In this document: positions 3,876-40,673 of the stretch, piece after piece
Layout of the letters: every line of letters starts with the position of its first letter
Numbering within the stretch: position 1 is the stretch's first letter
NCBI GenBank assembly: GCA_020974905.1
Contig: CP087563.1
Location: forward strand, 3,038,001-3,102,000
Direction: 5' to 3'
Origin: Planctomycetes bacterium syqfu
GTDB lineage: Bacteria; Planctomycetota; Phycisphaerae; Phycisphaerales; Phycisphaeraceae
DNA length: 64,000 bases
Translations under genes and position numbers: made by a program
The notes under the pieces: model-generated
Seen by the model: only the letters and a program-made list of their open reading frames with translations
Told to the model about the DNA's origin: nothing
Database searches by the model: none

Positions 3876-4289
3876 ATGACAACATCCAACATCGCAATCG
3901 AACTGCGCAAACTCGTGCAACAGCTTCATGACGAACGTGCAGAACACGTCAAGGCCATCGAGGCCATTGATCAGACGTTCCATGAATTGGGACTTGACTC
4001 GCACAAACCAATCGTCAAACCGCAACGTGGACGGCCCGCTGGCAGCAAAAACACTGTAAACAATGGGGAAAATGTTAAACGCAAGATATCTACAGCCACT
4101 GCTGACACATTCGTATTGTCATTCATTCAGGCCAACCCCGGCTGTACAACGGCGCAAGTCAATGAGCATTGGATAACAGCAGGCCGCAATGGCAAGGCCG
4201 ATCAGACGCTGTTCAAGCTTGTGAAGTCTGGCCAAATTGCACGCAAGAATATTAAGGGGAGACGAGGAAGTATGTACACCATAAGGTAG
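3876..4289 (+). CDS. Small coiled-coil plus winged-helix DNA-binding protein
   Basis: 137 residues. ATG at 3876 preceded by AGGAG with good spacing. Residues ~5-40 form an amphipathic helix (RKLVQQLHDERAEHVKAIEA), then a basic GRPAGSK linker resembling an AT-hook, and a C-terminal ~60-residue winged-helix-like domain (TTAQVNEHW, GQIARKNIKG). It is paralogous to the protein at 54598-55011: the helix, the GRP linker and the C-terminal block align almost throughout. Both genes lie at the end of a phage segment next to a copy of the structured element. A small phage-end transcription factor is the likely role; the target is unknown. A terminator follows directly. Confidence 0.8.
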   Translation: MTTSNIAIELRKLVQQLHDERAEHVKAIEAIDQTFHELGLDSHKPIVKPQRGRPAGSKNTVNNGENVKRKISTATADTFVLSFIQANPGCTTAQVNEHWITAGRNGKADQTLFKLVKSGQIARKNIKGRRGSMYTIR

Positions 4290-4318: not shown

Positions 4319-4345
4319 AACCCAGCTTTAAGCTGGGTTTTTATT
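4319..4345 (+). terminator. Rho-independent terminator
   Basis: CCCAGC (4321-4326), 5-nt loop, GCTGGG (4332-4337), then TTTTTA. It lies 30 nt after the stop of the gene ending at 4289. Confidence 0.85.
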
Positions 4346-4359: not shown

Positions 4360-4600
4360 GCCCTTCCCACTCACATATTGGAAGGGTGATCATACTATCG
4401 TCCCGGAAAGGAGACGGAACCACCATGAGCTAAACTAATTCGTCAGGCTATTCCCCCAGCCTGAACTTTACTATTTTAACCGATATGAACCTTGTGGGGT
4501 AAAAAGATAGTTTTGCAAACTATGTTATCTCCTCCACTATCAGCAACAACATTATAAATCATTTATTTACAATCAATTGACACAAACTCAATGAACTATT
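4360..4600 (+). ncRNA. Candidate structured RNA / phage-end element, left copy
   Basis: The first ~110 bp match 55939-56066 with about six differences. Helices visible in both copies: CCCTTCC/GGAAGGG (4361-4386), CGTC/GACG around CCGGAAAGGA, TCAGGCT/AGCCTGA (4443-4464), and a 3' arm with GTGG/CCAC, GGTAA/TTATC and ATAGTTT/AAACTAT (4507-4523). In the 3' arm the copies differ in sequence but keep pairing: an A-U pair in the right copy is G-U here, and a G-C pair is lost from both sides. Such changes favour a transcribed RNA on the + strand. I do not recognise it as a known riboswitch, tmRNA, SRP or RNase P RNA. It could alternatively be an attachment or end sequence of the phage. Confidence 0.55.
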
Positions 4601-12146: not shown

Positions 12147-12152
12147 TCAAAG

Positions 12153-12195
12153 AGCGGGTGAACGGACTCGAACCGTCGACAATCACGTTGGCAAC
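12153..12195 (-). pseudogene. tRNA-Gly(GCC) 3' half (att-site remnant)
   Basis: On the minus strand: anticodon loop TTGCCAA (12188-12194, anticodon GCC), 5-nt variable region, T arm GACGG-TTCGAGT-CCGTT, then the acceptor strand CACCCGC and discriminator T. All 3'-half features are canonical. The 5' side does not continue as a tRNA: the expected anticodon-stem strand and D arm are absent. A break exactly at the anticodon loop is typical of tyrosine-integrase attachment in a tRNA gene. No full tRNA-Gly is seen elsewhere in the window. Confidence 0.75.
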
Positions 12196-23102: not shown

Positions 23103-24563
23103 TTATACCTTCAATCTGTTGTTCAGCAGCCCATAATCACACCTGCAAATACTCTTTACTTCATCCCCACAAAAATCCGGCAACGCATTGACCGCCCTAT
23201 TGACATCCAGCAGGGCCGGATCGGTGTAGAAGTTGGTGGTGAGTTCGATCCGACTGTGCCGCATGGCAGCTTGGGCGACGCGGGGATGGACACCGGCGAC
23301 GGCCAGGTGAGTGCCAAAAGTGGTGCGTAGGGCGTGGATGTCGACGACTCGGCCACGCGGATCATTCTTGGAGATTCCTGCGGCTTGACAATCTGCGTCG
23401 AAGATGCGAATGCCGGGCGGGTTGTCGAACAGCAGCGACTTGTAGCCTTGCTTGCAGCGATGTTCAAGGTGCTGCCTGATCTTTTCGACGACATCAGCGC
23501 GTAGTGGCAACCGACTCTCTTTTCCGCTTTTGGACTGGCTAGCAAAGAGTTCAAAGTACGGCGCGGGCTTGGCATCCAGGAACAACTGGCCAAGTGTCAG
23601 GCTTCGCAGTTCCTTGTGCCGCAAGCCAGTCGAGACGGCCATCAGGTAGAACAACGCGCGTTCCTGTCCCAAGCGTTCGAGTTTCTTGAGATGGGTTGGC
23701 TTGAGTTTGGCCAGGCCGCGTTCGTAACAGGCGTCCAGATTCTGCTGCGTGATGGATTCGTAATGCCAGGTTTGACGGCCTTTGCGTTTGGACTTGGGAA
23801 TTTCAATCTTGCCTCTGCCCCACTCGGCGATTGGGCGCAGCGTTGCAGCACGGAGCAGGTTGCCGACTTCTTCAATCGTCAGGGCTCTGCGGATGTGCCG
23901 ACGGTCACTGGCGCGATCGGCTTTCTGCACCATCGTCAGCGGGTTGGCAACGATGCGTTGTTCTCTGACTAACCAGTTGCAGAAGGCGTGCATCGAGATG
24001 ACGTATTCGTTGCGCGTCGCAGCAGCCATGTCTTTGTCTTCAGCTTTGCTGAGCCAACGGTTCATCGCGTCGCTGGTAATGTCGGCCAGCTTTTTGATCT
24101 TCAAATCCTGAACCAGAATATTGAGGCGGCTCTTAACGTTCTTGCGGTAGTTGTCCGAGACTTTGCGTCCACGCACGCGTTTGATCTTCAGATGTTCCAG
24201 GTATTTTTCAATGTGATCGGTGATGGCTGCCTTACTGTGTTCGGCGACTTCGATTTCTTGCGGCGTGATGAAGCCGGCACGAATCTTCTCCTGCTCGGCC
24301 AGGACATCGGAGAGCACGCGCTGGGCAGCCTGCTCATCGCGGCAGCCTGTGGAGATGCGTTTATCGTTTCCTGCATGATCGGTATACCTGGCATACCAGA
24401 CTTCCGAGACATACATCATACGTTTACCGTCTTCAGCCAAAGGTGCTGTTTTGAGTTTACCGTGTTTGGTGCGCCATTGGACGACGGGCTTATTGCGTCG
24501 CGTGACGATTTCCGCACCGTCGGGCATGGGGATTGGGTAGGTTTTCTTGTACAGGTTGGCCAT
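23103..24563 (-). CDS. Tyrosine recombinase (phage integrase)
   Basis: 486 residues. The N-terminal ~100 residues contain an Arm-type strand region (YVSEVWYARYTDHAGNDKR); a SAM-like core-binding domain covers ~125-225, and the catalytic domain ~240-470. Catalytic residues: Arg in STGLRHKELRS, Lys-containing beta hairpin SKSGKESRLPL, HxxR in HALRTTFG, H in MRHSRIEL and the Tyr nucleophile in TTNFYTD. It inserts and excises the phage. The gene marks the left end of the phage; the attachment site should be near 23.06-23.10 kb, but I could not match a core sequence at the right end. Confidence 0.95.
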   Translation of the reverse strand: MANLYKKTYPIPMPDGAEIVTRRNKPVVQWRTKHGKLKTAPLAEDGKRMMYVSEVWYARYTDHAGNDKRISTGCRDEQAAQRVLSDVLAEQEKIRAGFITPQEIEVAEHSKAAITDHIEKYLEHLKIKRVRGRKVSDNYRKNVKSRLNILVQDLKIKKLADITSDAMNRWLSKAEDKDMAAATRNEYVISMHAFCNWLVREQRIVANPLTMVQKADRASDRRHIRRALTIEEVGNLLRAATLRPIAEWGRGKIEIPKSKRKGRQTWHYESITQQNLDACYERGLAKLKPTHLKKLERLGQERALFYLMAVSTGLRHKELRSLTLGQLFLDAKPAPYFELFASQSKSGKESRLPLRADVVEKIRQHLEHRCKQGYKSLLFDNPPGIRIFDADCQAAGISKNDPRGRVVDIHALRTTFGTHLAVAGVHPRVAQAAMRHSRIELTTNFYTDPALLDVNRAVNALPDFCGDEVKSICRCDYGLLNNRLKV

Positions 24564-24686
24564 GGGTACTTCGTTTGCCTTTCACGTTGGTGTCGCGTTG
24601 TGGTGACACATTGAGCCTCAACTCTGCTCAATTTACAAGGCCATGATTGGCATCATTTGACTTATTTTTCAGGGGTTTTCCGAGTT

Positions 24687-24923
24687 TTACTTCCGGGTGC
24701 GTACAGGTGGACAACCTGCATTGATCCACTTCTCAATGACATTGCGATTCCAGCGAACCAGCATGCCCAGACGCACGGGCGGTGGCATACGCTTGGTGTC
24801 ACATAAACGATAGATATGGCGCGAGCTGCAATTGAGCATGCTGGCGACTTGATCGACGGTCAGCATGACGGACGTCGGCTTGGCATCAGCGGATGAATCA
24901 ATAACGGTGGTTTGGGTGATCAA
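24687..24923 (-). CDS. Excisionase/AlpA-like helix-turn-helix protein
   Basis: About 78 residues. I chose the TTG at 24923 because a GAAGGAG ends 6 nt before it; the TTG at 24929 touches the SD. A MerR/HTH_17-type fold covers residues ~20-75: MLTVDQVASMLNCSSRHIYRL, then PPVRLGMLVRWNRNVIEKWI. Proteins of this type accompany integrases as directionality factors or repressors. It sits 124 nt upstream of the integrase gene on the same strand. Confidence 0.85.
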   Translation of the reverse strand: MITQTTVIDSSADAKPTSVMLTVDQVASMLNCSSRHIYRLCDTKRMPPPVRLGMLVRWNRNVIEKWINAGCPPVRTRK

Positions 24924-24957
24924 GAACAACTCCTTCTATATAGATACGGTGACAGAT

Positions 24958-25314
24958 TCACAGGGCTTGCAGCAACCATCGCCACCAGACACGCGGCAGG
25001 CCAGTCCAACCGGCACGGTTCATGGTGGCCATGCGGGATTTGCAACTGGTGCAGGGACGCACCAGGCCAAAGGTGGCGACCTGGATGAACATGGATAGCC
25101 ATGTACCTGGTGGGAGGATGCGATTGGGCTTGGGTGCGGGAACGTCGGCCCACTTGCCCAATGGACACTTGGATGCAGGCAAACTTGTGCGAGATTTGAG
25201 ATCGGCACCGTCGACATTGCAGTTGCATTTGCGATCCGGGTGGGACAGGCAGCTAACTGCGTGTTCACATTGACGGCAGATGGATCGGCGCGTGGTGATG
25301 AAGTCGGTGGGCAT
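24958..25314 (-). CDS. Small cysteine-rich phage protein, unknown
   Basis: 118 residues with eight Cys in pairs or close spacing (CRQC, CNC, CPLGKW, CTSC), a pattern suggesting two metal-binding knuckles. AAGGAA precedes the ATG at 25314. The C-terminal third is Trp-rich (GWTGLPRVWWRWLLQAL). No named family recognised. It is the last gene of the structural module on the minus strand, 30 nt after the Cys-rich 255-residue protein, so a virion-associated or late role is likely but unproven. Confidence 0.7.
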   Translation of the reverse strand: MPTDFITTRRSICRQCEHAVSCLSHPDRKCNCNVDGADLKSRTSLPASKCPLGKWADVPAPKPNRILPPGTWLSMFIQVATFGLVRPCTSCKSRMATMNRAGWTGLPRVWWRWLLQAL

Positions 25315-25343
25315 GAGTGGTTCCTTGTTTTAACTTCCGGGGG

Positions 25344-26111
25344 CTAGATTCCAGGGGTGGGATCGCTACAACTACCGTCGCCATTGGAGTCACCGACGAT
25401 GCAGTTACCTTGTTCGTCCATGCAGGATGTTTCATCGAGGACTTCGATTTGCAGTTGGACACGAGCGGGATTGGCATAAACATCCCAGATGTTGGTGCAG
25501 ATGCTGTGATTGTGCAGTTCGTCGCTGAGAATCGATGCACTGCGACAGGTGCCGGGTGCGGATGGGATGCAGGCGGCGAAGATGCGCCCGCAACTGTCTT
25601 CTGAATCTTCGTTGGCATAGCCGTCGACAGTGACATACCAGCGCGTGGTGCCATCACCATCACAGCCTGCGAGCACCATGGCATCGACGTAACTGCCACA
25701 TGCTGCACCTTCGGGGACGATGCCGTAACCCTGCCAACGTGGGCCGGTGATGGTGTTGCTTTCGCAGTTGGGTTGGGGGTGACCGCCGATCATGCCGGAG
25801 TGCCCGCAGCCTGGGCAATAGGGTGGGTTCCATGCACCGCAACTAAATGGGATTTCGATGGTGTTGCCCATGAAGGCGGGATCGGTACAGCAGCAACGTT
25901 CGTGGGTGTTGCCGTAGTCGATCAACTGCCAGGTGATGCGAATACGCGATTGATTGGTGAAGCAGCACGGGCCACACGCGCACGCATTAGCTGGAATCGG
26001 TTCCTGGCCACAGCATTTGCCGCAGATCATGAACAAACCCTCGTCCGTAAGGCCAAACTCTCCTGTCTCAACCTTCCGGGGGTCGATGTCGAACTCGCCG
26101 TTACTCCCCAT
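25344..26111 (-). CDS. Cysteine-rich phage protein (255 aa, ~23 Cys), unknown
   Basis: About 9% Cys, in clusters: ICGKCCG, CACGPCC, ERCCC, YCPGCG near the N-terminal half, and single Cys spaced 10-20 residues apart in the C-terminal half, which ends in an Asp-rich loop (GDSNGDGSCSD) resembling a calcium-binding repeat. The start ATG at 26111 overlaps the end of the previous gene by 11 nt. High Cys content suggests a disulfide-stabilised exposed protein (tail tip or fibre) or metal binding. I do not recognise a family. Confidence 0.75.
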   Translation of the reverse strand: MGSNGEFDIDPRKVETGEFGLTDEGLFMICGKCCGQEPIPANACACGPCCFTNQSRIRITWQLIDYGNTHERCCCTDPAFMGNTIEIPFSCGAWNPPYCPGCGHSGMIGGHPQPNCESNTITGPRWQGYGIVPEGAACGSYVDAMVLAGCDGDGTTRWYVTVDGYANEDSEDSCGRIFAACIPSAPGTCRSASILSDELHNHSICTNIWDVYANPARVQLQIEVLDETSCMDEQGNCIVGDSNGDGSCSDPTPGI

Positions 26112-27021
26112 CGTCGCATATCTCCACAGCTAGAGTCTCGTTGGCGTCATACAGGATGAATTCGCGTGTTCCGTCATAGGGATTGGTAACGTAGTAACCC
26201 GTGCCGATGACGCCATCGCCGGTGGCTGGTGCGGTGACGAGTTTGCCTGCTGCTGGACGTTGCTTGAGTGGTGTCATTTCCTCACCGAGAATCGTGCCAT
26301 CCTCTTCTTCGTCGTAAGCATCGATGGTTTTGACAAAGTACGTTCGATCACATTGCGTCGTCGCATCGCCATCGGTAGTGCCACCATCCTGCCAGACTTT
26401 GCAGGGAATGAGCGTCGTGGTATCCACCAAGCTGGGCACACCGAGTTTGACGATAGCCCAACACGGTTCACCAATGGGAACATCGGGTTGACTCCATAGA
26501 ATCTGCGTGCTGCCGGTAGCAGACGATGCCATGATCGCCGGGAATCCCACCGGTGCTTTGGCAAATTGATGGGTTTCATCGGTGATGATGATGCGAACCT
26601 GGCACACGCCTTGAATCATCGCACGGCCAACTTGCCCCGCACGGATCGGTTCAAGCAGGATGGCGTGTTTGTCCATGGCGACATGCGTATCAAGCTCAGG
26701 GAACACACCACTGAAAACGATCTGGTCAACAAAGCTGCCTTCCAGATCCATGATCGTCTGCGGTTCATGCACCGAGTCTTCGATGCCAAGGATGAAGTAC
26801 CGCCAGCAGTCCATGGGCGAATCATTCTTCACCCAGATCACCCCGCCTTGCCCCCGGTTCCCGGAAGCACTGGCAGATTGCATGGATTGTTCGAGTTTTT
26901 GGCGTGGCTTGATGCGCTGCTGAAAATCCTGAGCCGCATCGATGAATGCGTTGTATGTGTTGGCCGGGATCACCAAGGGATCGCCGGTACTGACTTTTTC
27001 AATGTCATGTTCAACCTCCAT
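26101..27021 (-). CDS. Phage tail-region protein, unknown
   Basis: About 306 residues. The start is the ATG at 27021, which overlaps the TGA of the preceding gene (TGATG), indicating translational coupling. N-terminal motif GDPLVIPANTYNAFIDAAQDF is reminiscent of tail-associated proteins of planctomycete phages; the rest is beta-rich (IIITDETHQFAKAPVGF; GTGYYVTNPYDGTREFILYD). No catalytic motif seen. Between the distal-tail gene and the Cys-rich protein it probably belongs to the tail tip or baseplate. Confidence 0.75.
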   Translation of the reverse strand: MEVEHDIEKVSTGDPLVIPANTYNAFIDAAQDFQQRIKPRQKLEQSMQSASASGNRGQGGVIWVKNDSPMDCWRYFILGIEDSVHEPQTIMDLEGSFVDQIVFSGVFPELDTHVAMDKHAILLEPIRAGQVGRAMIQGVCQVRIIITDETHQFAKAPVGFPAIMASSATGSTQILWSQPDVPIGEPCWAIVKLGVPSLVDTTTLIPCKVWQDGGTTDGDATTQCDRTYFVKTIDAYDEEEDGTILGEEMTPLKQRPAAGKLVTAPATGDGVIGTGYYVTNPYDGTREFILYDANETLAVEICDDGE

Positions 27022-27883
27022 CAAGAACCGATGTCCAGCAAACCAAAGTCGGCATCTTCATAGACCTGTTCGACATAAGCTGCGACCGGGCGTTTGACCA
27101 TGGCCATGGCATCCATGTCCTCGACGTCGGCGTATCGCACCCACAGGTATTCCCAACCTTTTTTGGCAATGCCACTGATGCTGCCGATGGTGATGCCGGT
27201 TTTGTTGGGCGATGCGGCGAAGCGATATGTGATCTCCCAGTCGCCAGTCGTCTCTGTGTCAGTCTCAGTACCGTGCAAGGTTCCTGATGCACCGAGGAAT
27301 AAGCATTCACCTGCAGCCAACCCACGGAACGTTGCGTTGTTCACTTTGCCGGTGAGTTGAAAGAGCGTGCCTTTGTATTCGGGCGTGACTTGCTCAACGG
27401 TCAGGTAATGGGTTTCGCTGAAGTTGTAGATGGGCACGGTGATATCAACGCCCTGGACTTCGGCATTGCCATTGGTGTTGGACACGCCGATCGCACCATG
27501 AAAGTCAGCGCAGATGGAATCGATGAATCCGCATACGAACCCACGGTGTTCAACGACTGGGTGATGTGCTGCGTCCCACCCATCGTGTCGAAGCTGTACG
27601 TGTACTCGCCACTTCCGGGGTCCGGATTTGAACTACCTCCACTCGAAGTTGACGCGGATTCAGCGTAGCGAACCGATGCATCCCAATACTCTTCGCTGAT
27701 CGGTTCAATCTGCACGGACTGCATAGGCAGACCGTCATATGTTTCAGGAGCAAAGTTTTCGACAGCGGATTTGATCGCCAGATCGTCATCACTGCCACTG
27801 GCAATGTAAGTCAACGTCACTTGAGCATTGCTGCCTGTGGTGCTTTGGCGACTGTCATATTTTTCAGCAACGGTGATAGGCAT
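27021..27883 (-). pseudogene. Tail protein gene broken by a frameshift near 27500
   Basis: The ATG at 27883 has an SD GGAG 6 nt away. The first frame (MPITVAEKYDSRQ...TMGGTQHITQSLNTVGSY) is coding up to about 27500; then the protein continues one frame away as ADFHGAIGVSNTN...EVQGVDITVPIYNFSETHYL through VKRPVAAYVEQVYED to 27021. The original frame carries on with an unlikely tail (CPTPMAMPKSRAL). A single missing base (or -1 shift) restores one ~285-residue protein. Position after the tape measure suggests a distal tail or minor tail protein. Real decay, programmed shift or sequencing error cannot be told apart here. Confidence 0.7.
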
Positions 27884-27906
27884 ACTTACTCCGGCATAGA
27901 GGATGA

Positions 27907-28836
27907 TTAACTGAATGACAGGGACGATGAACCACCGCCACCGTTCTGCACTTCGTTGTAGAGCTTCTTGACGTAACGGGCGGTGTCTTCACTGGCGGCT
28001 GCGGTGCGCTGGGCGATGGACTGATTCGTCATGAGTCCCTGCAAGGCAGCGGAATTGAACGTGCCACGCGATTGTTGATTAGGACTCAGCGAGCCAATCT
28101 GCCCACCCAGTTCGGCAAGTTTTTTCTTGAGGGTGTCGATCAGGTTGTTGGGTGACGAAGGTTGATCACCAGACTGATTACCCTCTGCCGGTTTATTTTG
28201 AGCAGCCTGCTGCAAAAGCTGCTGATATTCAGCACGGGTCTTTTCCAGATCGTCCAACGCTGTGGCCATCTGTTTTTCGTACTGGGTCTGACGATTCTTA
28301 TTGCCAACAGCCTGTTCCTGATCAATCAGATTCTGTTGTGTTTGGCGTTCGTGCTCGATGCGTGCAAGGTCTGAATCATATTGCTGTTTGTTCTCAGACA
28401 ATGCTGCATCACGTTGCCTTGTGATGTTGGCTTTATCCGCGTTGGCATTGGTGCGGGCGATGTTGATCGCCATGTCGACGTTGTAGTCTTTGTCGAACAG
28501 GCCGATCAGATGGTGCATCCCTTCCTCAACTTTGAGTTGGGCCGAACGGAACGTTGACTGCAATCCCGCCGTCATCGTCGTCCATGCATCGGAGAGGAAC
28601 GTTGTGGTTTGAACCCACAGGATGCGAAGGCCATGCCAGGCATCGACGAGGACCTTGGTCACCTTATAGAAGGCTTGGCTGGCGACATTGACGATGGTGT
28701 ACTTGAAGCTGTACCAGAGAGATTCGATCTGGTAGATGCCACGTTGCCATTCGACTTTCAAGGCTTGCCAGAGAATCTTCGCAGCCAGACTCAGATCACC
28801 GGAAGCCAGCGCATCGCGGATGCCTTGCCAAGCCAC
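27907..28836 (-). CDS. Tape-measure protein, C-terminal part (frame-broken)
   Basis: 309 residues beginning VAWQGIRDALASGDLSLAAK and including long Gln/Ala-rich coiled coils (SDLARIEHERQTQQNLIDQE, ALDDLEKTRAEYQQLLQQ). The upstream frame at 28796-30280 ends in a short non-homologous tail (DRGSGGLARHP) that encodes, one frame over, the natural continuation RIAALVAWQG. Removing one base near 28850 joins both into one ~790-residue tape measure. A separate start at the GTG 28836 has no SD. Confidence 0.75.
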   Translation of the reverse strand: MAWQGIRDALASGDLSLAAKILWQALKVEWQRGIYQIESLWYSFKYTIVNVASQAFYKVTKVLVDAWHGLRILWVQTTTFLSDAWTTMTAGLQSTFRSAQLKVEEGMHHLIGLFDKDYNVDMAINIARTNANADKANITRQRDAALSENKQQYDSDLARIEHERQTQQNLIDQEQAVGNKNRQTQYEKQMATALDDLEKTRAEYQQLLQQAAQNKPAEGNQSGDQPSSPNNLIDTLKKKLAELGGQIGSLSPNQQSRGTFNSAALQGLMTNQSIAQRTAAASEDTARYVKKLYNEVQNGGGGSSSLSFS

Positions 28837-30280
28837 CAGAGCCGCGATCCTTCAGTTCGCTGAAGCGATCACTTAACCAATTGAGGGTCTTACTGGCAAT
28901 GTCCGTCATGCTCAGAATGGCAATGCCAATCCCGGCCGCCGCGACGATCACCAATCCCATGGGTGAGATCAGTGCGCCCAGCACCGTGAGTAATGTCCCG
29001 ATCACACCGACACTACCGGTGATGATGCCAGACAGTCCACCGAAGATGAACGCCACCGCCTGGGCCGCAACACCAGTCGTCATCAGGATCACACCGACAG
29101 CAGTGATGCCTGCAATCACCAGCGCGGCCGAACGCACCAGCGACTGGTTCTTACTGAGCAGATCAATCACCACGCTGGCATATTGCGAAACGATGGCCGC
29201 TGCCTTAGCCACGGGTTCACTTAACGCTTCACCCATAATGCCCAGCACGATGATGCCCGCCTGCTTGATGCGGTTAAAAGCATGAGTGATGGTTTTACTG
29301 AGTTTTGCATAAGCCTTGTCGGCCAGGCCCGCGCGGCTCTGCATCGCATCAAGGTCGGATTCAAAACCCTTGAGATTGTTCAGTGCCGGGACAATGCCGC
29401 GCAGGGCAGCGGAATCGGGGAACAGTTTGGCCAGAACATCGGGCGGGAGTTTGGCGAGTTTTTCCATGACACCGTGCAAGCCCTCGGTCTTGAGCGTCGT
29501 GGTGTTCATTTCAAAACCGAGCTCGTGTGCTAACTTGGTTGCTTCGGCGCTGGGCTTGAGGAAGCTGCGCAGGATGCCGTTGACCGAATCGATGGCCGTG
29601 GTGGTCCGCAGGCCGTTGCGCGTTAGCGTGGCGATCATCGCGCCCAGTTCGTCCAACGGCAGACCCGCACTGGCAGCTGTCGATGCGACCATGCCGATCT
29701 GCGGTGCCAGTTCGGCAAACGTCGTTTTGCCGCGTTGGACAATACCAAACAACCAGTCGGAGACATCGCCAGCGTTTTCCGCAGCCAGCCCATAACTATT
29801 GAGTACGGTGGTGATGGCATCGGCTGCCGTACGTGTGTCGGTCAAACCTGCTTTTGCAGATTTGGCCGCAACACCCAGCACATCCAGCGCCTTGGCAGGA
29901 GCAATAGACGCCGACAGGATGTCATACAAACCACCGGACAATGCTTCGGTGGATTCACCAAAACTCACCGCCATCTTGCGGATGCCCTTGGTGAAGCTGT
30001 CCATGTATTTTTCGGCATCACTATCCGAGAGCATGGTGGAGACGGTGGCCATCTGCTGCTGAAAATCCGCGTAGATTTTCAGGCCGGAGAGCAGAGGCAC
30101 CGCCGCCACAGCAGACACTGCGGTCAATCGCTTGCCGATCTCGCCCACAGACTTGCCGAAGGCTTTGACACGCTTCTGGGCTTTATCGAGACCACGGACC
30201 AACTTGCTGTCCTGCGTGGTCAGCTCAATGTACGCAGCCCCAGCACGAATGTTCCGACTGTTGGCGATACCTGGTGACAT
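28796..30280 (-). CDS. Tape-measure protein, N-terminal part (TP901 type)
   Basis: 494 residues. The TP901-type core is clear: KAFGKSVGEIGKRLTAVSA (~42-60), FQQQMATVSTMLSDS, GLYDILSASIAPAKALDVLG, then GLPLDELGAMIATLTRNGL. Long hydrophobic segments near the C-terminus (IAGITAVGVILMTTGVAAQ; MGLVIVAAAGIGIAIL) are usual in tape measures that cross the host membrane at DNA entry. It sets tail length in a siphovirus or myovirus. The frame ends early through an apparent one-base insertion near 28850; see the C-terminal part. Confidence 0.85.
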   Translation of the reverse strand: MSPGIANSRNIRAGAAYIELTTQDSKLVRGLDKAQKRVKAFGKSVGEIGKRLTAVSAVAAVPLLSGLKIYADFQQQMATVSTMLSDSDAEKYMDSFTKGIRKMAVSFGESTEALSGGLYDILSASIAPAKALDVLGVAAKSAKAGLTDTRTAADAITTVLNSYGLAAENAGDVSDWLFGIVQRGKTTFAELAPQIGMVASTAASAGLPLDELGAMIATLTRNGLRTTTAIDSVNGILRSFLKPSAEATKLAHELGFEMNTTTLKTEGLHGVMEKLAKLPPDVLAKLFPDSAALRGIVPALNNLKGFESDLDAMQSRAGLADKAYAKLSKTITHAFNRIKQAGIIVLGIMGEALSEPVAKAAAIVSQYASVVIDLLSKNQSLVRSAALVIAGITAVGVILMTTGVAAQAVAFIFGGLSGIITGSVGVIGTLLTVLGALISPMGLVIVAAAGIGIAILSMTDIASKTLNWLSDRFSELKDRGSGGLARHPRCAGFR

Positions 30281-30304
30281 GTGAAAATTCCGAAGGTTAG
30301 TTTT

Positions 30305-30393
30305 TTAACACGAAGGACACGAAGACACGAAGGGCAAGACAAAAAGAATGTTTTTCTTCGTGTCCTTTGCGCCCTTCGCGCCTTCGCGTTAAA
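30305..30393. repeat. Inverted repeat of GAAGGACACGAAG type
   Basis: An imperfect palindrome of ~89 bp bounded by TTAAC...GTTAA. The left arm repeats CACGAAGGACACGAAG and ACACGAAGGGC; the right arm is its complement with GCG substitutions. Related repeats are known from many bacterial intergenic regions. Here it sits between two tail-module genes and may act as a hairpin terminator or be a recent insertion. Confidence 0.75.
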
Positions 30394-30406
30394 TCCCATA
30401 GCCCAT

Positions 30407-30886
30407 TTACGCAGTAGCAGCAGTGATACCAGTGGATGTTGACGTGACCGTGGTCTTTCTGCCTTCGTCCAGGCCCTTGTTGAAGGAGTCTTCTTTTTCC
30501 TTGCGGAGTTTGCCAGAGCCGAGGAATAACCCGAGTAGTCCGGATGCAGCAGGTAACATGGGGCCGAGAACGGGGACACCTGCAACGGTGGGGCCGATCT
30601 CATCGAGAGCAGACAACGACAACTGGTTGACCATGTTGCGGATTTCGTTGGCGTGTTCGATGTTGGACTTCCACTGACTGCCAGCCGTTTGCATGTGCTG
30701 ATACCAGAGTTGATATTCGCTCTCGGCTTCGTTGAGCGAGATGGTGCTGGCCAGGCCCGTCTGCTGCTGGATGGTGTTGGGCGTTTTGACGTGGATCATG
30801 TCGCCCATATCGCAGCCCGCAAAACTCAGCAGGCCCAAGACAACAAACGTGAGGATAAACAGAAAGATCAGATGATTGGTTTTCAT
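30407..30886 (-). CDS. Phage lipoprotein with membrane segment
   Basis: 159 residues. N-terminal signal with lipobox LLSFAGC (Cys ~25). A second hydrophobic stretch follows at ~115-130 (PMLPAASGLLGLFLG), then KLRKEKEDSFNKGLDEGRKT. Planctomycete phages carry similar small membrane lipoproteins. It could be a spanin-like or superinfection-exclusion factor, but nothing proves it. It overlaps the previous gene by 4 nt, so it is expressed with the tail genes. Confidence 0.7.
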   Translation of the reverse strand: MKTNHLIFLFILTFVVLGLLSFAGCDMGDMIHVKTPNTIQQQTGLASTISLNEAESEYQLWYQHMQTAGSQWKSNIEHANEIRNMVNQLSLSALDEIGPTVAGVPVLGPMLPAASGLLGLFLGSGKLRKEKEDSFNKGLDEGRKTTVTSTSTGITAATA

Positions 30887-31191
30887 AAAGATGGTTTCCT
30901 TTGAATTCCGGGGCTTCCGGGGTTGGGAACAAAAGTGCGTTTGAGTAGTGCCATGGCATCGTCTGTATCCAACGGGATCACCGACGACGATTGGCTTTGA
31001 GCAAACGGATCAAAGTCCGCTGCTTTGAACGTATGGGAACGATTGAAGGTCAGCAGATTGGCAAGCAGTGCCATCAGGTTGGACGTGTGCTGCCAATCCT
31101 GCTTCTGGCGAGACTGGGCCATCTCATACAATTCACGCAGAGTGAACGGATCGGGGTGGACGCCGAGGACACCTGCCAATTGCCAGATCAT
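30883..31191 (-). CDS. Tail assembly chaperone-like protein (gpT-position)
   Basis: 102 residues. The ATG at 31191 overlaps the upstream stop (ATGA). The N-terminus GVHPDPFTLRELYEMAQSRQ and HTSNLMALLANLLTF match the second tail-chaperone gene of lambda-like phages, here read from its own coupled start rather than by a programmed frameshift. It lies between the first chaperone gene and the tape measure, as expected. Confidence 0.7.
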   Translation of the reverse strand: MIWQLAGVLGVHPDPFTLRELYEMAQSRQKQDWQHTSNLMALLANLLTFNRSHTFKAADFDPFAQSQSSSVIPLDTDDAMALLKRTFVPNPGSPGIQRKPSL

Positions 31192-31640
31192 GTCCTGGCA
31201 GGTTGCAGCAGGTGTTCGAGTTGCTGCTGGAGTTCCGGACTGTCCAGTTGGGCACTGGCGATTTGAAGGGCTTTTTCCTCGACCTGGCGAAGCTTGGCCA
31301 GTGCCTTCTTGAGCACGGTGCGCTTCGCTGCGGGGAAAAAATCTGCCAACTCCTGGAGCAACGCTGTGGTCGCATGATCGATGACGTCACCGGCCAATGC
31401 CTGTCCGAACTGTTCGTCGGTGATGTTGGCGCTTTCAGCTTGGTCTTTACAGATGACATAAAGCACATCACAGAGTAGGATCGGATCGGTGGACAGTTTT
31501 TCCAGCAAATGTGACTTACTGTCCAGCACGTCCAGCAGGTTGACGCCGACGAGTGCTTGGACACGTTTGATGGTGGCAACGGTGATCTGAACCGTCCATA
31601 CATTGTTGCCGTTACTTCCGGGGGCAGTAAAAGTATGCAT
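31188..31640 (-). CDS. Tail assembly chaperone (gpG-position)
   Basis: 150 residues from the ATG at 31640 (MHTFTAPGSNG). Motifs ATIKRVQALVGVNLLDVLD, LLCDVLYVICKDQAE and DVIDHATTALLQELADFFP are typical of the chaperone encoded between tail tube and tape measure. The same frame is open upstream through the tail tube gene because of a frame break; the natural boundary is marked by the TAATG overlap of the tail tube stop (31640-31642) with this ATG. Confidence 0.75.
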   Translation of the reverse strand: MHTFTAPGSNGNNVWTVQITVATIKRVQALVGVNLLDVLDSKSHLLEKLSTDPILLCDVLYVICKDQAESANITDEQFGQALAGDVIDHATTALLQELADFFPAAKRTVLKKALAKLRQVEEKALQIASAQLDSPELQQQLEHLLQPART

Positions 31641-32069
31641 TAGCTGCCACCTCCATCCACCCAAGTCGGAGCCGCGGGTGACATAGGTTGGCTTAACAGT
31701 CACGTTGACGGTGATGGCTTCTTCGAGCGGTTCGTTGCGTGTGAAGTTGGTCACCGAGAAGTCAGCATCAAGGCCACTGCCACCTTCACCATCAAGTACG
31801 GCCATGGCAATGGGTGTGTTGTTGAAGTACGCATCCTTGATCGCACCAAAGCCTTCGTCGCTTGAATCCCAATTCATCGTGAACTCAACACTGCCATTCT
31901 TAAGTGTGGCGATGGTTGCACGCCAGCCTTGGCTAGCGCGGGTCGTCACATCGGCCTCGTTGGTCTCGAGGTTGAGCGTGACATCCTTTGTGTTTGTCAG
32001 CTCGCTTGTTGCAGTTGTGCCGGCCGCGCCGTAGTACAGCTTGGCCTGCATCCCTAAACGGATGGACAT
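31640..32069 (-). CDS. Major tail tube protein (frame-broken near its end)
   Basis: The ATG at 32069 follows AAGGAGATTTTT. The first ~128 residues read as a tail tube (GMQAKLYYGAAGTTATSEL; SVEFTMNWDSSDEGFGAIKD; FTRNEPLEEAITVNVTVKPTY). After VKPTYV the frame goes on as TRGSDLGGWRWQL into the chaperone gene, whereas one base further it reads SPAAPTWVDGGGS and a stop that overlaps the chaperone ATG. Dropping one C of the CCC run near 31680 restores this end. As given, the frame would make a tail-tube/chaperone fusion of 293 residues. Confidence 0.75.
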
Positions 32070-32105
32070 AAAAATCTCCTTAAAACAAGGTGTTTTGTGA
32101 TTGGT

Positions 32106-32501
32106 TTATCGAATCGAGCCTGCCCAAAATCGAGGCAGACGCGGTAAGTTTTTATTCAGTGCTGGCCCCATCAGTTGCCTTCGGGGGTAACGATGTCCAC
32201 GGAACATGCCGCCGAATTCGTGGGCCATGGCCGACGGGCCAACGTGGGCGAAACCGGGGCCAATCAGGATACGGTCGTTGCCTTCGCGGTCATAGACGAT
32301 GGCACGCCGCAGTTGCCCATGTCGCGTATGCGGTGGCGAACCGGGTGGTGCATAGCGTTTACTCCGTCGAATACTCCGCCTCGCTGTTAACCGAATCGCC
32401 GCACCGGCATGTCCCAAACTTTGGAAACTCGCCTGGTTCATTTTTTGCCGAACGAGTTTTTTGTTGAACCCGTTATGGGGTTTAAAGTGAACTCTGAGCA
32501 T
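32106..32501 (-). CDS. HK97-gp10-like head-tail/tail completion protein
   Basis: 131 residues, very basic (many Arg and Lys): IRLTARRSIRRSKRYAPPGS, GQLRRAIVYD. GPGFAHVGPSAMAHEFGGMF near the C-terminus is typical of gp10/tail-completion proteins. It lies directly between the tail terminator-like gene and the tail tube, the canonical place. Assignment by motif and order. Confidence 0.65.
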   Translation of the reverse strand: MLRVHFKPHNGFNKKLVRQKMNQASFQSLGHAGAAIRLTARRSIRRSKRYAPPGSPPHTRHGQLRRAIVYDREGNDRILIGPGFAHVGPSAMAHEFGGMFRGHRYPRRQLMGPALNKNLPRLPRFWAGSIR

Positions 32502-32507
32502 GGTGGT

Positions 32508-32939
32508 TTACTTTGTGATGCGATACGTCAACGTCAGCACCGACGTGAACACCCGCTGATTGGCCAGGTGATCCGGATCGTAGATGGGCTGATTCTCCAC
32601 TTTGATCCAGATCGCATACGGCATGTCCAATAGTGGTTGGCGTTGCAGGTAGTCGGCGATCTGCTCAACCAATCCGCTCAAATCTTTAACAGCTGTATCG
32701 ATTTCATCCTGCGGTACCGTGAGTTTTTGCTGGATGCCAATATCAACCTGACAGTCGTATTGGCTGAGTTTGCGTGTGATGCTTTGAACCTGCACGCCAC
32801 GTGGCACGACACTGACGGTCAGTGCCATTAGTTGCGATAGATCGTGGATCGGTAACACAGTGCGTTTGGCATTGGTGACGATCTCCGATTGATTGAGTTG
32901 TGAAGTCACTGCATCAGCAAGGTCTATTGTCATTTGCAT
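32508..32939 (-). CDS. Tail terminator-like protein (gpU-position)
   Basis: 143 residues. Alternating strands and helices with LSGLVEQIADYLQRQPLLDM and a C-terminal RVFTSVLTLTYRIT strand pattern, usual for proteins that cap the tail tube. No catalytic motif. The function rests on gene order (head-tail connector, small membrane protein, this gene, gp10-like, tail tube). Confidence 0.6.
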   Translation of the reverse strand: MQMTIDLADAVTSQLNQSEIVTNAKRTVLPIHDLSQLMALTVSVVPRGVQVQSITRKLSQYDCQVDIGIQQKLTVPQDEIDTAVKDLSGLVEQIADYLQRQPLLDMPYAIWIKVENQPIYDPDHLANQRVFTSVLTLTYRITK

Positions 32940-32958
32940 ATTTACCCTCGGCCCCGGA

Positions 32959-33192
32959 TTAACCCCGAAAAATACTAAAAAGAATATTCACCAGACTCGT
33001 CACACCAGCACCGGCAATGAGCCACATCCAGCGTGCGTGGCGAATCGCGTTTTGTTCCAGGCGATCCAAACGAATGTTGATGCCCGGTTCACCGTTGCCA
33101 CGGATGGCATGATCGAGCCGGTCGAGTTTGTTGTGCAGTTCATCGAACTGACTGCAACTGGAATCGCATGCGTGATGCGTTGGGTTGGTCAT
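32959..33192 (-). CDS. Small coiled-coil membrane protein (possible holin-type)
   Basis: 77 residues from the ATG at 33192, which overlaps the upstream stop (ATGA). FDELHNKLDRLDHAIRG and IRLDRLEQNAIRH form a heptad coiled coil; the C-terminal 20 residues (MWLIAGAGVTSLVNILFSIF) are one transmembrane helix. XhlA-like holin-associated proteins look like this, but similar small phage proteins have other roles. Confidence 0.65.
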   Translation of the reverse strand: MTNPTHHACDSSCSQFDELHNKLDRLDHAIRGNGEPGINIRLDRLEQNAIRHARWMWLIAGAGVTSLVNILFSIFRG

Positions 33193-33554
33193 GTATTTGC
33201 ATCTCCCAATAGTCGAGTGTGAATGCGTAAAGTGGTGTGATAAGGATCGCAGTAGCGGTAGCAACCGTCATCACCGAAGTTGGTGATTTCATATTGCTTG
33301 CCATCCATCGTCAGGACGTCACCGGGTTGAGGTTCAAACTCCGCCGGGAAGTCATCTGCGTTGACGAGAAAATCCCACATGCTCGATTCGATGGTCACGC
33401 CACCGACCGTGGATTTTTCGTACTTACTGATGCCCGGCGAGGCATGGACGGTGTACGCGGATTCACCTTGTTGATAGACGACTTCCTGCGTACACCATCC
33501 CGCCCTCACCCTGGCGAGCCACTGCATGCCCTCTTTCATGTAGTCTCTGGCCAT
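33189..33554 (-). CDS. Head-tail connector protein
   Basis: 121 residues. DFPAEFEPQPGDVLTMDGKQ and YEITNFGDDGCYRYCDP match the beta-barrel connector (gpFII/stopper) type encoded after the capsid genes. Located between the decoration protein and tail-completion genes. Modest evidence from motif and order. Confidence 0.6.
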   Translation of the reverse strand: MARDYMKEGMQWLARVRAGWCTQEVVYQQGESAYTVHASPGISKYEKSTVGGVTIESSMWDFLVNADDFPAEFEPQPGDVLTMDGKQYEITNFGDDGCYRYCDPYHTTLRIHTRLLGDANT

Positions 33555-33569
33555 TCTGCCCCCAGAAGT

Positions 33570-33902
33570 TTAAGCCAGTAGTTTCATACGAACAGTTGCA
33601 TCGTTGTCACCGGCATCGGCCACAGCCTTGCCCATGTACTTGCCTTCGATTTCGGTGGGCGTCACGTATTTGTTGGCCGAATCCCAGTAAAGCTTTGTGC
33701 CCGTGGTGATGGCCATGCCGGGGCCACCGATCTTGGGCACATCGAAAATGCCGGTCACCGACAAACTGCCCAACGTGTTTGCAGCGATGTCGAGTTTGGC
33801 AATGCCAACGAGATCTTCCTGGACAACCACGTCGCCAGCGGCCACATCAACGGCTGGGGTGTAGTCAATACTGTCACCTTTGTGAACGAATGTTGCGATC
33901 AT
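33570..33902 (-). CDS. Head decoration protein, DUF2190 type
   Basis: 110 residues: VHKGDSIDYTPAVDVAAGDV at the N-terminus, VVQEDLVGIAKLDIAAN, then GTKLYWDSANKYVT. This beta-rich layout is the DUF2190 family of capsid-stabilising proteins. AGGAG precedes the ATG at 33902. It directly follows the capsid gene in transcription order. Confidence 0.85.
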   Translation of the reverse strand: MIATFVHKGDSIDYTPAVDVAAGDVVVQEDLVGIAKLDIAANTLGSLSVTGIFDVPKIGGPGMAITTGTKLYWDSANKYVTPTEIEGKYMGKAVADAGDNDATVRMKLLA

Positions 33903-34006
33903 GTAAGAAATGCTCCTGCGAGAAGAAAAAGATCAAAAACAGCTTGTTTTCAAGGGAAAAACTACGGATACTTCCGAAGGCATGTTTTAACTTCCGGGGA
34001 CGGGGG

Positions 34007-36064
34007 TTAGGCTTCGCCCTTGAGTTTCAGCGCACCGCGATGATCCTGTTCGCGGACACCGAAATCGATAAAGCCGCGGAAAAGAATGCCCAGCGAATTG
34101 AAATCTGCATCCGTTTTTTCAACGGTGGGACGATCCACGCCGTTGAGGAAAGCCACCTCAATCGAGGGCAGACGATTGGGATCTGCCAGGAGATACCACG
34201 CCTTGCTGCTGGCACCGGTGAAGCTGGCATTGGCCAGGTAGACACTGGAGACGACGTCGAACTTGCCCACGTGCGGATTCGTCGTCGGCTTGGGTTTGTT
34301 CGTGGTGGTGGTTTCGTTGAGCTGGATGCTCTTCATCAGCATCTCGGCTGCGACCTTCAGCGCGGTGGGCACGAGCAGGATGTTAGCAGGCATACCGAGC
34401 GGTTTACCGTTGGGCTTGATCTGTTCGCTGAATTTCACTTCGGCATTGGTCAGGCCATCGACGGATAAAGCAGTGTCTGCACCTTCGAGGTAATTGCCGT
34501 GATCAGCATGAAAGAAAGCGTTGCCATCGGATTGGGTGGGATTGCGAAGCCACAGGCCCCAGACGGCATCGGCAATGGCTTCAGCCGCACCCATACCAAT
34601 CTGACGCGGGATGTCGGTGAAGGCCCCCATGTCATCGTTGATGATCATCTGGCGAGTCAGGGCAAACATGATGCCGTGGGTGTCGGCACGCTGGCCGAAC
34701 TTCTGCTCATCAAGTTTGCCATGCTTCAGTTCACCGTCCGGGCCGACCTGTTCAAACTTGAAGGAACCGGTCATACGGTAGCGACTGTGTTCCTTAAAGT
34801 CGTTGACGCTGGCGACCTTGGCAATGCGACGCCAGGCATCTTCGACGTAGTTGTAGCCTTCGAGCAACATCTTGTTGGCAATGTTGCTCAAAACCCCCGG
34901 AAGTGTGGCCGAGCTGAATGCGGCTTGCAACCAGCCGCTGGCATCGCGACGGAAACGGGGAAGCTGTTGGCCCGATGCCATCTCGCAGAACTCCTGGACA
35001 CCGATACCACGAAGTTTGTCGGCAGCTTCGAGAACGGGTTCGGCATACATCGCTTCGATGCGGGTGTTGGGCAAACCACTGGCCATCAATGCTGCCGCTT
35101 CAAACACCTGCGGATTACCCGCATGCTGATTGACTTTGGTGTGCATGGCAACGGGAAGTTGCGGGCGCGATGCGCGAAGGACGTGCAGTTCGGTCTTGGT
35201 CACATCCCAACCTTCCTCAATGGCCTGCGCTTCGATGTCCGGATGTTTGCCTTCGCAGGTGCTGCGGATGGCCTGGATGCGGCGGGTTTCTTCAGCCATC
35301 TGCTGACGCATCTGCATCATGGGGTTCTGATCATCCGGGGCAGAGGTCGGTGCATCCGAGACATCCTGCGTTGCACGCGCGGCGATGGCGGCAGGACTCG
35401 CGGTCGGCGTGGTCGAAGGTTTGGCCGGTTTGGGATCGGTGACGATGGTGGTGGTTGCTTGGCTTTGTGTACCATGCGGCATGTGCGATTGCTCCTTGCT
35501 GTTGGCTGCGATACGGGCAGACGTAGACGAATCTGCCCCGTTGTCGACGAATGAAATTTCTTTGAGGGTTGCTTTGCGGACGACGTGAATCGGGCCATCA
35601 AACGTCCGGCCATTGACGGTGACGTTCTGGCCATTGGGGATGAACTGGGCATCAATGACGGCAGCACCGATGCTGGCCTGCCAGGGAAAACCGTTCTGGC
35701 CACTGCGAATCACATCACGTGCCCAACTGGTGTCACGGCTGACAAGGCCTTCGGCCACGAGCCTCCCGCCTCCGGAAGTTTTTTCAACAGCAACGCGCTG
35801 CGTGTGGCCGACGCCCTGACGCGATTGGTGATCCAGACGAACCGGAATGTCCTGGCGGTCAATGGCCAGACCTTCAAGGTCCACCACGACGGGATGCGGG
35901 AATCCCTCGATCCGCATCAGACCACCGGTGTAAGCGACCATCTTGAACTGCGGAACCCCGGCACTTCCGGGGGTTTCTTTGTTTCCAGCGGCCTCAATGG
36001 TCAGCGGGCAGATGAACGACAGTTGATCAGGCAGTTGTTGGGTTGGCGACAGTGTCATCGTCAT
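34007..36064 (-). CDS. Prohead protease fused to Mu gpT-like major capsid protein
   Basis: 685 residues. Residues ~15-185 are a prohead protease-like domain: IPVRLDHQSRQGVGHT (catalytic His likely) and GFPWQASIGAAV (Ser likely). A low-complexity, Thr/Pro/Ala-rich linker (~195-240) follows, then a helical scaffold-like stretch (NPMMQMRQQMAEETRRIQA), and from ~330 the capsid domain (ALTRQMIINDDMGAF; GNAFFHADHGNY; SKAWYLLADPNRLPSIEV). Natural protease-capsid fusions occur in several phages; self-cleavage would release the shell subunit. The start overlaps the portal gene end by ~38 nt. Confidence 0.88.
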   Translation of the reverse strand: MTMTLSPTQQLPDQLSFICPLTIEAAGNKETPGSAGVPQFKMVAYTGGLMRIEGFPHPVVVDLEGLAIDRQDIPVRLDHQSRQGVGHTQRVAVEKTSGGGRLVAEGLVSRDTSWARDVIRSGQNGFPWQASIGAAVIDAQFIPNGQNVTVNGRTFDGPIHVVRKATLKEISFVDNGADSSTSARIAANSKEQSHMPHGTQSQATTTIVTDPKPAKPSTTPTASPAAIAARATQDVSDAPTSAPDDQNPMMQMRQQMAEETRRIQAIRSTCEGKHPDIEAQAIEEGWDVTKTELHVLRASRPQLPVAMHTKVNQHAGNPQVFEAAALMASGLPNTRIEAMYAEPVLEAADKLRGIGVQEFCEMASGQQLPRFRRDASGWLQAAFSSATLPGVLSNIANKMLLEGYNYVEDAWRRIAKVASVNDFKEHSRYRMTGSFKFEQVGPDGELKHGKLDEQKFGQRADTHGIMFALTRQMIINDDMGAFTDIPRQIGMGAAEAIADAVWGLWLRNPTQSDGNAFFHADHGNYLEGADTALSVDGLTNAEVKFSEQIKPNGKPLGMPANILLVPTALKVAAEMLMKSIQLNETTTTNKPKPTTNPHVGKFDVVSSVYLANASFTGASSKAWYLLADPNRLPSIEVAFLNGVDRPTVEKTDADFNSLGILFRGFIDFGVREQDHRGALKLKGEA

Positions 36065-37526
36065 TAACGTTGGTCTCCTGTGAAGGTGAAGATTGGTTGG
36101 GCTGCGAATCCATAACCGTCAGCCCGAGTTGATTCATGAGTTTGGTTTCCTTGGCACGCTGACGAAGCTCGGTTTCCCAATCTTTGCCCTGACGGGCATA
36201 TTCAGCGGCCAATGTGGTGGTGTGGCTGGTCAAGCGCGTGGCCTGAGCATTGGCTTCCTTGGCCGGGTCCACATGCTCGGTGCCATCGAAAAACCAGCCT
36301 TTTTGCAGGGGTAATGGACGCCCGGACAAGGTGGGCATACTGCGCACTGTGCGCAGTATGGAGAACTCCGGCGTCAGCATGGCCTCACGTATCCATGCGT
36401 TGAAAATCTGATCCAAAACCACTTCGGCAAGATGCATCTGCTCGACACGAATGGACTTGTAATAAGTCTGATGGTCAAGCCGCCCAGACGCATAGTTGTA
36501 GCCTGACGAGTTGCAGGCGGCGATGTTGTAAGGAAGATTCAAGCACCGCGCGATCTCGTTAAGAATCTCGCGTTTGAACTCAGCCAAACCCGTCACAGGC
36601 TGTTGGGCTTCAATCTGCCCCAGTCGCCAACCATCCGGTAACACGGTGGCCATGCGCTTTTCCAGATTGACGATATCCATCGGATCAAGCGGCTGGGCTT
36701 CACCGTTGGCCGGGGAATCGGTGTACAACACCGCAGCAAAATCAGCGGCAGTTTCAGCAGCGGCCAGCACGGCGAGAATGTATCGACGCAACTGCGCAAA
36801 CAATGGAAGTGCAGGAGTAATCTCCGGAATTCCACGATGTTGCTCGGGACGATCCGCACGAAACCAGTGAATCACAGATGCCGCAGGCACTTCGTCATAC
36901 TGAGATGTCCACGAGGAATAATTCCCCAGGCCGCCCGGATGCTGCCGCAGGATGGAATAGAACTGCGGACTTCCGAAACTGTCGAGAATCACCCCATCCA
37001 CATCGTTGCGTGTGGGCAACATCACTGACGACGGCGACGCGATGCGATCCGCTTCAATGAGTTGTAGATCAAGTGCAACAGGCGAATCGATATTGGGATT
37101 GAAATTCAAAACACCAAACGCTTCACCATCGGTGCTCTTGGCCATCCGCATCGTACGGAGCTTGGATGCCAGGCTGACCGCTTTGCTCCACTGGGCAAAG
37201 GCATCTTCGATCTGACGATTGAGTTCATCATGCTTGGTGAGTAGTTGCAGGCGCGGCCCCGTACCGATGCAGTCATTGGCCAGCGTCAACACAATACCCT
37301 TGGCATAACTGTTGTTGGCTACTTCGTATCGAGCACGCTCACGCAACTTCTTGCGAATGTCCGCAGACGCCGCACAGTCCGCTGACATCGCATCGGCCAT
37401 CGCCCAGTGCCGGGCATTCTCTGCCGTTGTCTGCGCCGCGTCGTAACGCGCCCGCACCACGTTGGCCACCGGCAGTTGGCGTTGCACCTGAGGTTTGGAT
37501 TTTTTGAACCAGTTACGAACGTGCAT
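36027..37526 (-). CDS. Portal protein, lambda family
   Basis: 499 residues from the ATG at 37526, overlapping the TGA of the gpW-position gene (TGATG). Lambda-portal features: NNSYAKGIVLTLANDCIGTG (~72-91), WFRADRPEQHRGIPEITPAL (~216-235), and FKREILNEIARCLNLPYNI (~318-336). It forms the dodecameric DNA channel in the capsid. Ends in a Ser/Asn/Asp-rich disordered tail. Operon with terminase upstream and capsid downstream. Confidence 0.93.
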   Translation of the reverse strand: MHVRNWFKKSKPQVQRQLPVANVVRARYDAAQTTAENARHWAMADAMSADCAASADIRKKLRERARYEVANNSYAKGIVLTLANDCIGTGPRLQLLTKHDELNRQIEDAFAQWSKAVSLASKLRTMRMAKSTDGEAFGVLNFNPNIDSPVALDLQLIEADRIASPSSVMLPTRNDVDGVILDSFGSPQFYSILRQHPGGLGNYSSWTSQYDEVPAASVIHWFRADRPEQHRGIPEITPALPLFAQLRRYILAVLAAAETAADFAAVLYTDSPANGEAQPLDPMDIVNLEKRMATVLPDGWRLGQIEAQQPVTGLAEFKREILNEIARCLNLPYNIAACNSSGYNYASGRLDHQTYYKSIRVEQMHLAEVVLDQIFNAWIREAMLTPEFSILRTVRSMPTLSGRPLPLQKGWFFDGTEHVDPAKEANAQATRLTSHTTTLAAEYARQGKDWETELRQRAKETKLMNQLGLTVMDSQPNQSSPSQETNVNDDDTVANPTTA

Positions 37527-37723: not shown

Positions 37724-37747
37724 GAGTTTCCCTCGGACTTATGTGTC

Positions 37748-37832: not shown

Positions 37833-37849
37833 GCGTTGTTGTGATCGGC

Positions 37850-40355: not shown

Positions 40356-40456
40356 CAGAATTCAAAAAAGCCTTAAAAATAAGGGTAAAAGTCGCATTAT
40401 CCGCTTGTAATCCGTTTCGAATGCTGGCTTCATGTGTCTATAGAAAGGCCAACAAC

Positions 40457-40651: not shown

Positions 40652-40673
40652 CCATTCGCAACAGGAGAAACAC

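Follow-up and report, generated by a model that had tools for sequence, protein, structure and literature searches.

A multi-copy structured element at prophage/cargo junctions of a tRNA-Gly island array in one planctomycete genus

What is the short non-coding element that recurs toward both ends of a 64,000-nt stretch of Planctomycetes bacterium syqfu (hereafter the window; positions 3038001-3102000 of the 7,376,598-base genome), and does it act as RNA or as DNA? A sequence-only reading had described a two-copy element and proposed it as a candidate structured RNA of the plus strand. Our results revealed a family of 17 copies rather than two, which we refer to as E; by covariance-model search, the genus has copies in three of its four genomes (7, 7, 0, and 3). 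It is a real multi-copy structured element, located at prophage/cargo junctions and genus-specific in what was searched. The proposal of a structured RNA holds to the extent that E is conserved, structured, and probably an RNA; its assignment to the plus strand does not, as the minus strand is favored. The features on which the argument rests are collected in Table 1.

Table 1. Element E and its neighbors in the window (window coordinates)
Feature	Position	Strand	Remarks
Left copy of E (well-conserved part)	4360..4551	-	Model core 4399-4550; strand is the one favored for RNA
Right copy of E	55939..56209	-	Model core 55978-56127
Hairpin H1	55940..55965	-	Minus-strand 3' arm GGAAAGGG, purine-rich, 10 nt before the response-regulator start codon
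Hairpin H2	55978..55995	-	CGTCTC/GGGACG on minus
Hairpin H3	56023..56045	-	7 bp, loop 8-9 nt
Main hairpin H4	56060..56121	-	Lower stem ACCGATAG..CTATCGGT, mid stem GTGG..CCAC, upper stem and loop variable
Response-regulator gene	55096..55929	-	Receiver domain, PF00072; directly downstream of the right E copy on minus
Small gene beside left E copy	3876..4289	+	Terminator at its end
Terminator-like hairpin of small gene	4319..4339	+	
Prophage with right E copy at its outer end	23103..55929	-	Phage gene matches
tRNA-Gly 3'-end scar	12152..12179	+	One of 21 direct copies in the array

Copies of E and the array that holds them

The match of ~110 bp with about six differences that had been reported between the two window copies was borne out: the first 110 alignment columns hold ~6 differences, and the copies are 95% identical over 75 nt and 83% identical over another 69 nt. 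The likeness of the right copy to other copies runs past the end originally described, to ~56209, with one copy extending the match to 56235. When the window's genome, which is a single contig, was searched at the DNA level, six copies were found, and the covariance model, built from 14 copies, brought this to seven, all in the same orientation between contig positions 2434699 and 3202434. When the DNA search was extended to 60 relatives of the window's genome, three of the resulting 61 genomes matched, all of one genus (six copies in the window's own genome, seven in G001, and three in G003). The covariance model, run with stricter filters against 298 genomes of the class, matched two, the window's own and G003, with G001 not among its hits. 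The covariance-model search for homologues that had been suggested did therefore uncover further members, but within the genus only; neither the 61-genome DNA search nor the 298-genome class search found E outside it. Further, the left copy had no match among phage and plasmid records up to an E-value of 1, and the response-regulator protein had no relatives on viral contigs. Apparent relatives of E on viral contigs were rejected as chance, given a 15-base pattern seen in at least 120 stretches and, among 80 listed loci, three matches to the covariance model with a best E-value of 0.02.

The window lies in an array of direct tRNA-Gly 3'-end copies that spans ~0.7 Mb (contig 2.49-3.22 Mb). Specifically, a 28-mer allowed up to 5 mismatches matched 21 times between 2.46 and 3.24 Mb, always on the plus strand and never on the minus, and the one intact tRNA that ARAGORN identified there, a tRNA-Gly (GCC) on the minus strand at 3218192-3218265, is the rightmost of the 21. 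Ten integrase genes, all on the minus strand and matched over residues 1-464 or more, are interspersed among these scars; nine are 91.0-94.6% identical to that of the window, two of the ten carry one in-frame stop each, and the phage genes after them vary from complete to partial among the units. An E-bearing unit reads, in order, tRNA scar, cargo, integrase (minus), phage genes (minus), response-regulator or small winged-helix-like gene, E, cargo, and scar.

The window prophage that carries the right copy of E at its outer end has matches to an integrase (23103-24563), tape measure, head protease/major head, portal, and terminase large subunit, as well as to primase, helicase, Sak4-like, and exonuclease proteins, and all of its phage-matched genes are on the minus strand. 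Cargo genes in the window match sulfatases and glycoside hydrolases, and the cargo across the array includes both types together with AraC-type regulators, the latter recognized by eye. E was found at the outer end of five of the ten prophage units in the window's genome (integrases at 2551, 2745, 3027, 3061, and 3168 kb) and was missing from the other five (2669, 2830, 2913, 2995, and 3119 kb), in a survey from which matches of five cargo-type queries below 45% identity were dropped. Two of the E-less units have another repeat after the small gene, common to the 3' ends of transposase-like genes. The window also contains repeats between neighboring prophages, at 20-421/50614-51015 and at 1294-1456/37715-37877, the latter of 163 nt at 85% identity and with a third, shorter copy at 53781.

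What adjoins E on its left falls into classes: a response-regulator gene in 8 of the 17 copies (one reduced to ~210 bp and one shortened), a small winged-helix-like gene in five (one truncated and one cut by a contig end), a tRNA-Gly scar in three, and no assigned class in one. The copies from G001 and G003 come from fragmented assemblies. In the window, the left copy lies between a small plus-strand gene, without a Pfam match at 0.01 and winged-helix-like by eye, and a minus-strand glycoside-hydrolase-like cargo gene. The earlier observation that the element directly follows a terminator applies to this copy, by virtue of the hairpin at 4319-4339, but not to the right copy, whose first nucleotide (E nt 1) precedes the ATG of the minus-strand response-regulator gene by 9 bp. 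Two other candidate explanations were rejected. For a host repeat or mobile element with target duplication, no duplication was definable, because the left flank varies by class (response regulator, small gene, or tRNA scar). For a small minus-strand ORF in the first 80 nt of E, the alignment, judged by eye, revealed a frameshifting insertion in one copy.

On the right, the nearest ORF of at least 120 aa is on the minus strand in 16 of the 17 copies, the exception being the copy that diverges after H3, and 13 of these 16 ORFs end 268-404 nt from E nt 1. One explanation for this regularity is that E is a 3'-end or insulator RNA of the cargo operon, such that minus-strand cargo transcripts would end or be processed in E and the prophage would be shielded from them. 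The right flank is only mildly informative, however, because 336 of the 451 ORFs of at least 200 aa in the array are already on the minus strand. Given, in addition, that no minus-strand terminator-like hairpin with a T run was found in either window copy and that units without E exist, we consider an insulator improbable.

Pairing and the favored strand

The alignment of E folds better than shuffled alignments on both strands, which supports a structured element. Over E nt 1-200, the consensus fold reached -28.1 on the minus strand, relative to a shuffled mean of -8.7 (z -6.6), and -19.2 on the plus strand, relative to -3.0 (z -7.7), with 0 of 150 column-shuffled alignments as low in either case. 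Little structure was found over nt 195-350 (-1.2 on minus, a value reached by 2 of 150 shuffles, and 0.0 on plus, reached by all 150). Single copies gave weaker signals, with no consistent strand preference (z of -1.7 on plus and -1.9 on minus for the left copy, and of -2.4 and -1.4, respectively, for the right), and the H4 hairpin alone folds lower on the minus strand in 9 of 14 copies. No Rfam 15 family matched in the window at its gathering score; a scan of 4200-4800 yielded seven matches up to an E-value of 10, none at its own threshold, the best at 22.8 bits against a required 47.

Within this structure, the 3' hairpin retains its stacked helices while its sequence drifts between the left and right copies, as the sequence-only reading had described and as both the alignment and the hairpin folds confirm. 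H2 exhibits one C-G to U-A double change, and one of its pairs, present in 13 copies, is U-G on the minus strand and C-A on the plus strand in every one of them. The inverted repeat of H3 is perfect in 12 of the 14 aligned copies, and the five-C run of its loop (plus strand) is invariant in all 14. Two of the three most divergent members retain CTCATG.TGGTTCC, with two of the six H2 pairs broken in one of them and a single pair in the other.

Pairs were counted over 14 of the 17 copies, and the counts depend on the alignment, in which the upper part of H4 is poorly alignable. Copies G3C61 and G3C11 were left out, one matching well over its first 81 nt only and the other diverging after H3, and a degenerate copy at 2434699, which was paired by hand, joined only the main-stem count, for 15 copies. 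Across 31 named pairs in the 14 copies, Watson-Crick pairs account for 364 cells, minus-strand G-U pairs for 40, plus-strand G-U pairs for 8, and other combinations for 9. With the constant H2 pair removed, which supplies 13 of the 40, there are 27 minus-strand versus 8 plus-strand G-U cells, and the distinct G-U pair types number 12 versus 6, which is not significant alone. In the main stem (the lower and mid parts of H4; 11 pairs in 15 copies), 161 of 165 cells pair on the minus strand (145 Watson-Crick and 16 G-U), and G-U cells number 16 on minus versus 2 on plus, or 13 versus 2 without the hand-paired copy. That copy forms 10 of the 11 main-stem pairs on the minus strand by way of three G-U pairs and two double changes, the latter being two of the three compensatory changes that the main stem exhibits. 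These counts contradict the earlier assertion that G-U pairs form only on the plus strand, which is true of the GGTAA/TTATC pairing in the left copy, part of the upper helix that is the least securely aligned. Because wobble pairs favor the minus strand, the RNA strand of E, if any, is more likely to be minus than plus.

A covariation check had been put forward as support for an RNA. No significant covariation was found over the 14 aligned copies, which did not clearly exceed shuffles on any of five measures: 96.0% of cells paired, compared with 95.6% in shuffles (132/500); 4 pairs changed on both sides, compared with 2.0 (35/500); a covariation score of 0.121, compared with 0.113 (62/500); further pair types (314/500); and a fifth measure (70/500). 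For the main stem, with one of its copies hand-paired, 26 of 5000 shuffles reached the minus-strand value and 57 of 5000 the plus-strand value.

The plus strand could nevertheless be read as a free-standing small RNA with its own promoter, in line with its better-than-shuffled fold and with a plus-strand terminator-like site at 4443-4464, within the left copy. Against this, the wobble bias by cells is toward the minus strand, and scans of two window stretches, beginning at 4250 and 55850, yielded no plus-strand promoter-like site to the left of E. The minus strand did not stand out in this respect either, as the best sigma-70-like sites in the 17 copies scored 7-10 of 12 (10 in two copies), compared with shuffle means of 7.0-8.8 (20 simple shuffles each, which kept base composition only and were recorded as means only) and with plus-strand scores of 7-10. 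The promoter of its own that the sequence-only reading called for did not, therefore, emerge above shuffled controls at any site that would serve E, and no promoter and terminator of its own were found on the same strand, in consensus scans that constitute a weak test. Further, E is located at the junction of a prophage end and cargo within a tRNA-Gly island array, a setting that argues for a leader or boundary element acting in cis over a free-standing small RNA, and we regard the latter as very improbable.

Leader RNA, attachment arm, or operators

We tentatively favor the reading of E as a structured minus-strand 5' leader RNA of the leftward operon of the prophage, and we place it somewhat short of an even chance. 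As a cis-acting leader positioned at the outer (early) end of prophages of one genus-specific family, E would present its hairpins in the order H4, H3, H2, and H1 just ahead of the gene that opens the operon. Where that gene encodes the response regulator, the last hairpin, H1, would pair the purine-rich stretch before the start codon; its 3' arm, GGAAAGGG, precedes the ATG by 10 nt in all eight response-regulator copies and, by eye, is not a strong Shine-Dalgarno sequence. The opening and closing of H1 could then tune translation of the regulator and, in turn, phage gene expression, while E would separate the phage operon from the cargo operon running toward it. A leader with a hairpin that covers the ribosome-binding site is the simplest mechanism to make use of both the position and the structure of E. 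Counted against it are the consensus scans, in which no minus-strand promoter stood out, the nine of 17 copies that have no adjoining response regulator (including the three that abut a tRNA-Gly scar), the five of ten integrase units that have no E, and the larger z of the plus-strand fold relative to the minus-strand one.

A close rival to the leader is that E acts as DNA, specifically as a subterminal arm of an attachment region, the repeats of which would be bound by the tyrosine integrase or a partner protein, so that remnants and integrase-less islands would keep E. This would explain why E sits at the outer ends of prophages and persists without adjoining phage genes, as in the three copies at a tRNA-Gly scar and in the one that retains only ~210 bp of the response-regulator gene. 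The other prophage end is alike, in that matching to the integrase gene ends at one point in its 3' end and that 3' fragments of ~150-230 bp occur alone. Five such isolated fragments were found in the region read (contig 2477788, 2536672, 2804475, 2823316, and 2980551), ending near the same codon (residues 463-480), and PF00589 matched nothing between 2.47 and 3.24 Mb beyond the ten prophage integrases and one fragment of their gene. The same matches entered a comparison with integron attC sites, in which R-box motifs were judged by eye. Matches to this 3' part of the integrase alone extend to other genera, and one stretch (G031:C7 1860-7678) holds three integrase 3'-end fragments in a row, 2.5-3 kb apart.

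Several aspects of E are at odds with an attachment arm. The best-conserved part of E adjoins the phage gene and not the supposed core, half of the ten integrase-bearing units lack E, and a wobble asymmetry would be unexpected of DNA. The would-be core, a motif M (CAGCGCAACAATCCGCTGCGCCGCTACA), is clear after only four of the 17 copies, all in G001 or G003 and none in the window's genome. We therefore judge an attachment arm to be possible but rather unlikely. The motif itself is a directional 28-base sequence with 11 plus-strand and 0 minus-strand matches (up to 8 mismatches, such that some may be chance), and it was observed after transposase-like genes at contig positions 2527820, 2588989, 2620914, 3013244, and 3021391, among others. 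Two att cores were considered and rejected. Motif M as a core matching the integrase 3' end, although promising by eye, gave p of ~0.007-0.04 relative to random 100-bp windows, with the reverse complement nearly equal. A core within E, GGAACCACCATGAGC, has three matches in the window, which is what shuffles give; besides the two E copies, the remaining one (with one mismatch) is at 40935 and not at the other prophage end.

The arm and leader roles might also be combined. E and the isolated integrase 3' fragments would then be the two arms by which integrase-less carbohydrate-degradation islands are moved via neighboring prophages, growing the 0.7-Mb tRNA-Gly array from phage-borne catabolic cassettes, while E additionally serves as the leader RNA of the phage operon. 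We consider this compound scenario unlikely.

Alternatively, E could be a cluster of palindromic DNA operators through which the response regulator and the winged-helix-like protein would control transcription at this end of the phage. E adjoins one of these two genes, or a remnant, in 13 of the 17 copies, and the perfect inverted repeat of H3 would suit such a role. However, the compensatory changes in H4 and the minus-strand wobble pairs are unneeded for a protein-binding palindrome, and a long, asymmetric hairpin with a drifting loop is not operator-like; we therefore consider operators quite unlikely.

Relatives of the integrase (53-55% identity) occur in a different family of the order, in two genomes (stretches G045:C1 76431-164888 and G057:C1 1239173-1346795). 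Each adjoins three repeated tRNA-Gly 3' ends, with one intact tRNA-Gly per stretch read, and the orientation of these integrases relative to the scars is opposite to that in the window's genome. No matches to the phage proteins of the window were found in the stretches read, a survey in which weak cargo-type matches below 40% identity were dropped. Thus, the tie of this integrase family to tRNA-Gly looks older than E, which looks like a local addition.

Significance and relation to known systems

Whatever its role, E marks the phage/cargo junctions of the tRNA-Gly array, where copies of a single tRNA gene end bracket about one-tenth of the 7.4-Mb genome. A riboregulatory role, if real, would make E a novel structured RNA associated with one family of planctomycete prophages. 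Further, the junctions marked by E make it directly testable whether phages drive the gain of polysaccharide-degrading genes in marine planctomycetes. The literature searched contained no mention of E or of the tRNA-Gly array, which is no proof that neither has been published.

Like ribosome-binding-site-sequestering leader RNAs and the leader or antiterminator RNAs of phages (put and nut), E is a structured region that precedes the opening gene of a phage operon. It differs from them in having no Rfam 15 match at the gathering score and in being restricted to one genus in the searched set. The arms of prophage attP sites are non-coding, repeat-rich, and subterminal and are retained in remnants. 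E shares each of these properties, while its wobble-pair strand bias and the unconvincing match of the putative core to the integrase 3' end set it apart. At the scale of the whole array, the tRNA-Trp island CGI48 of Shewanella is described as a tRNA-targeting composite genomic island (PMC8978831). The tRNA-Gly array is like it in that islands are stacked at one tRNA gene and differs in its 21 direct 3'-end copies over ~0.7 Mb, its ten related integrase genes, and the presence of E as an extra feature at the prophage end.
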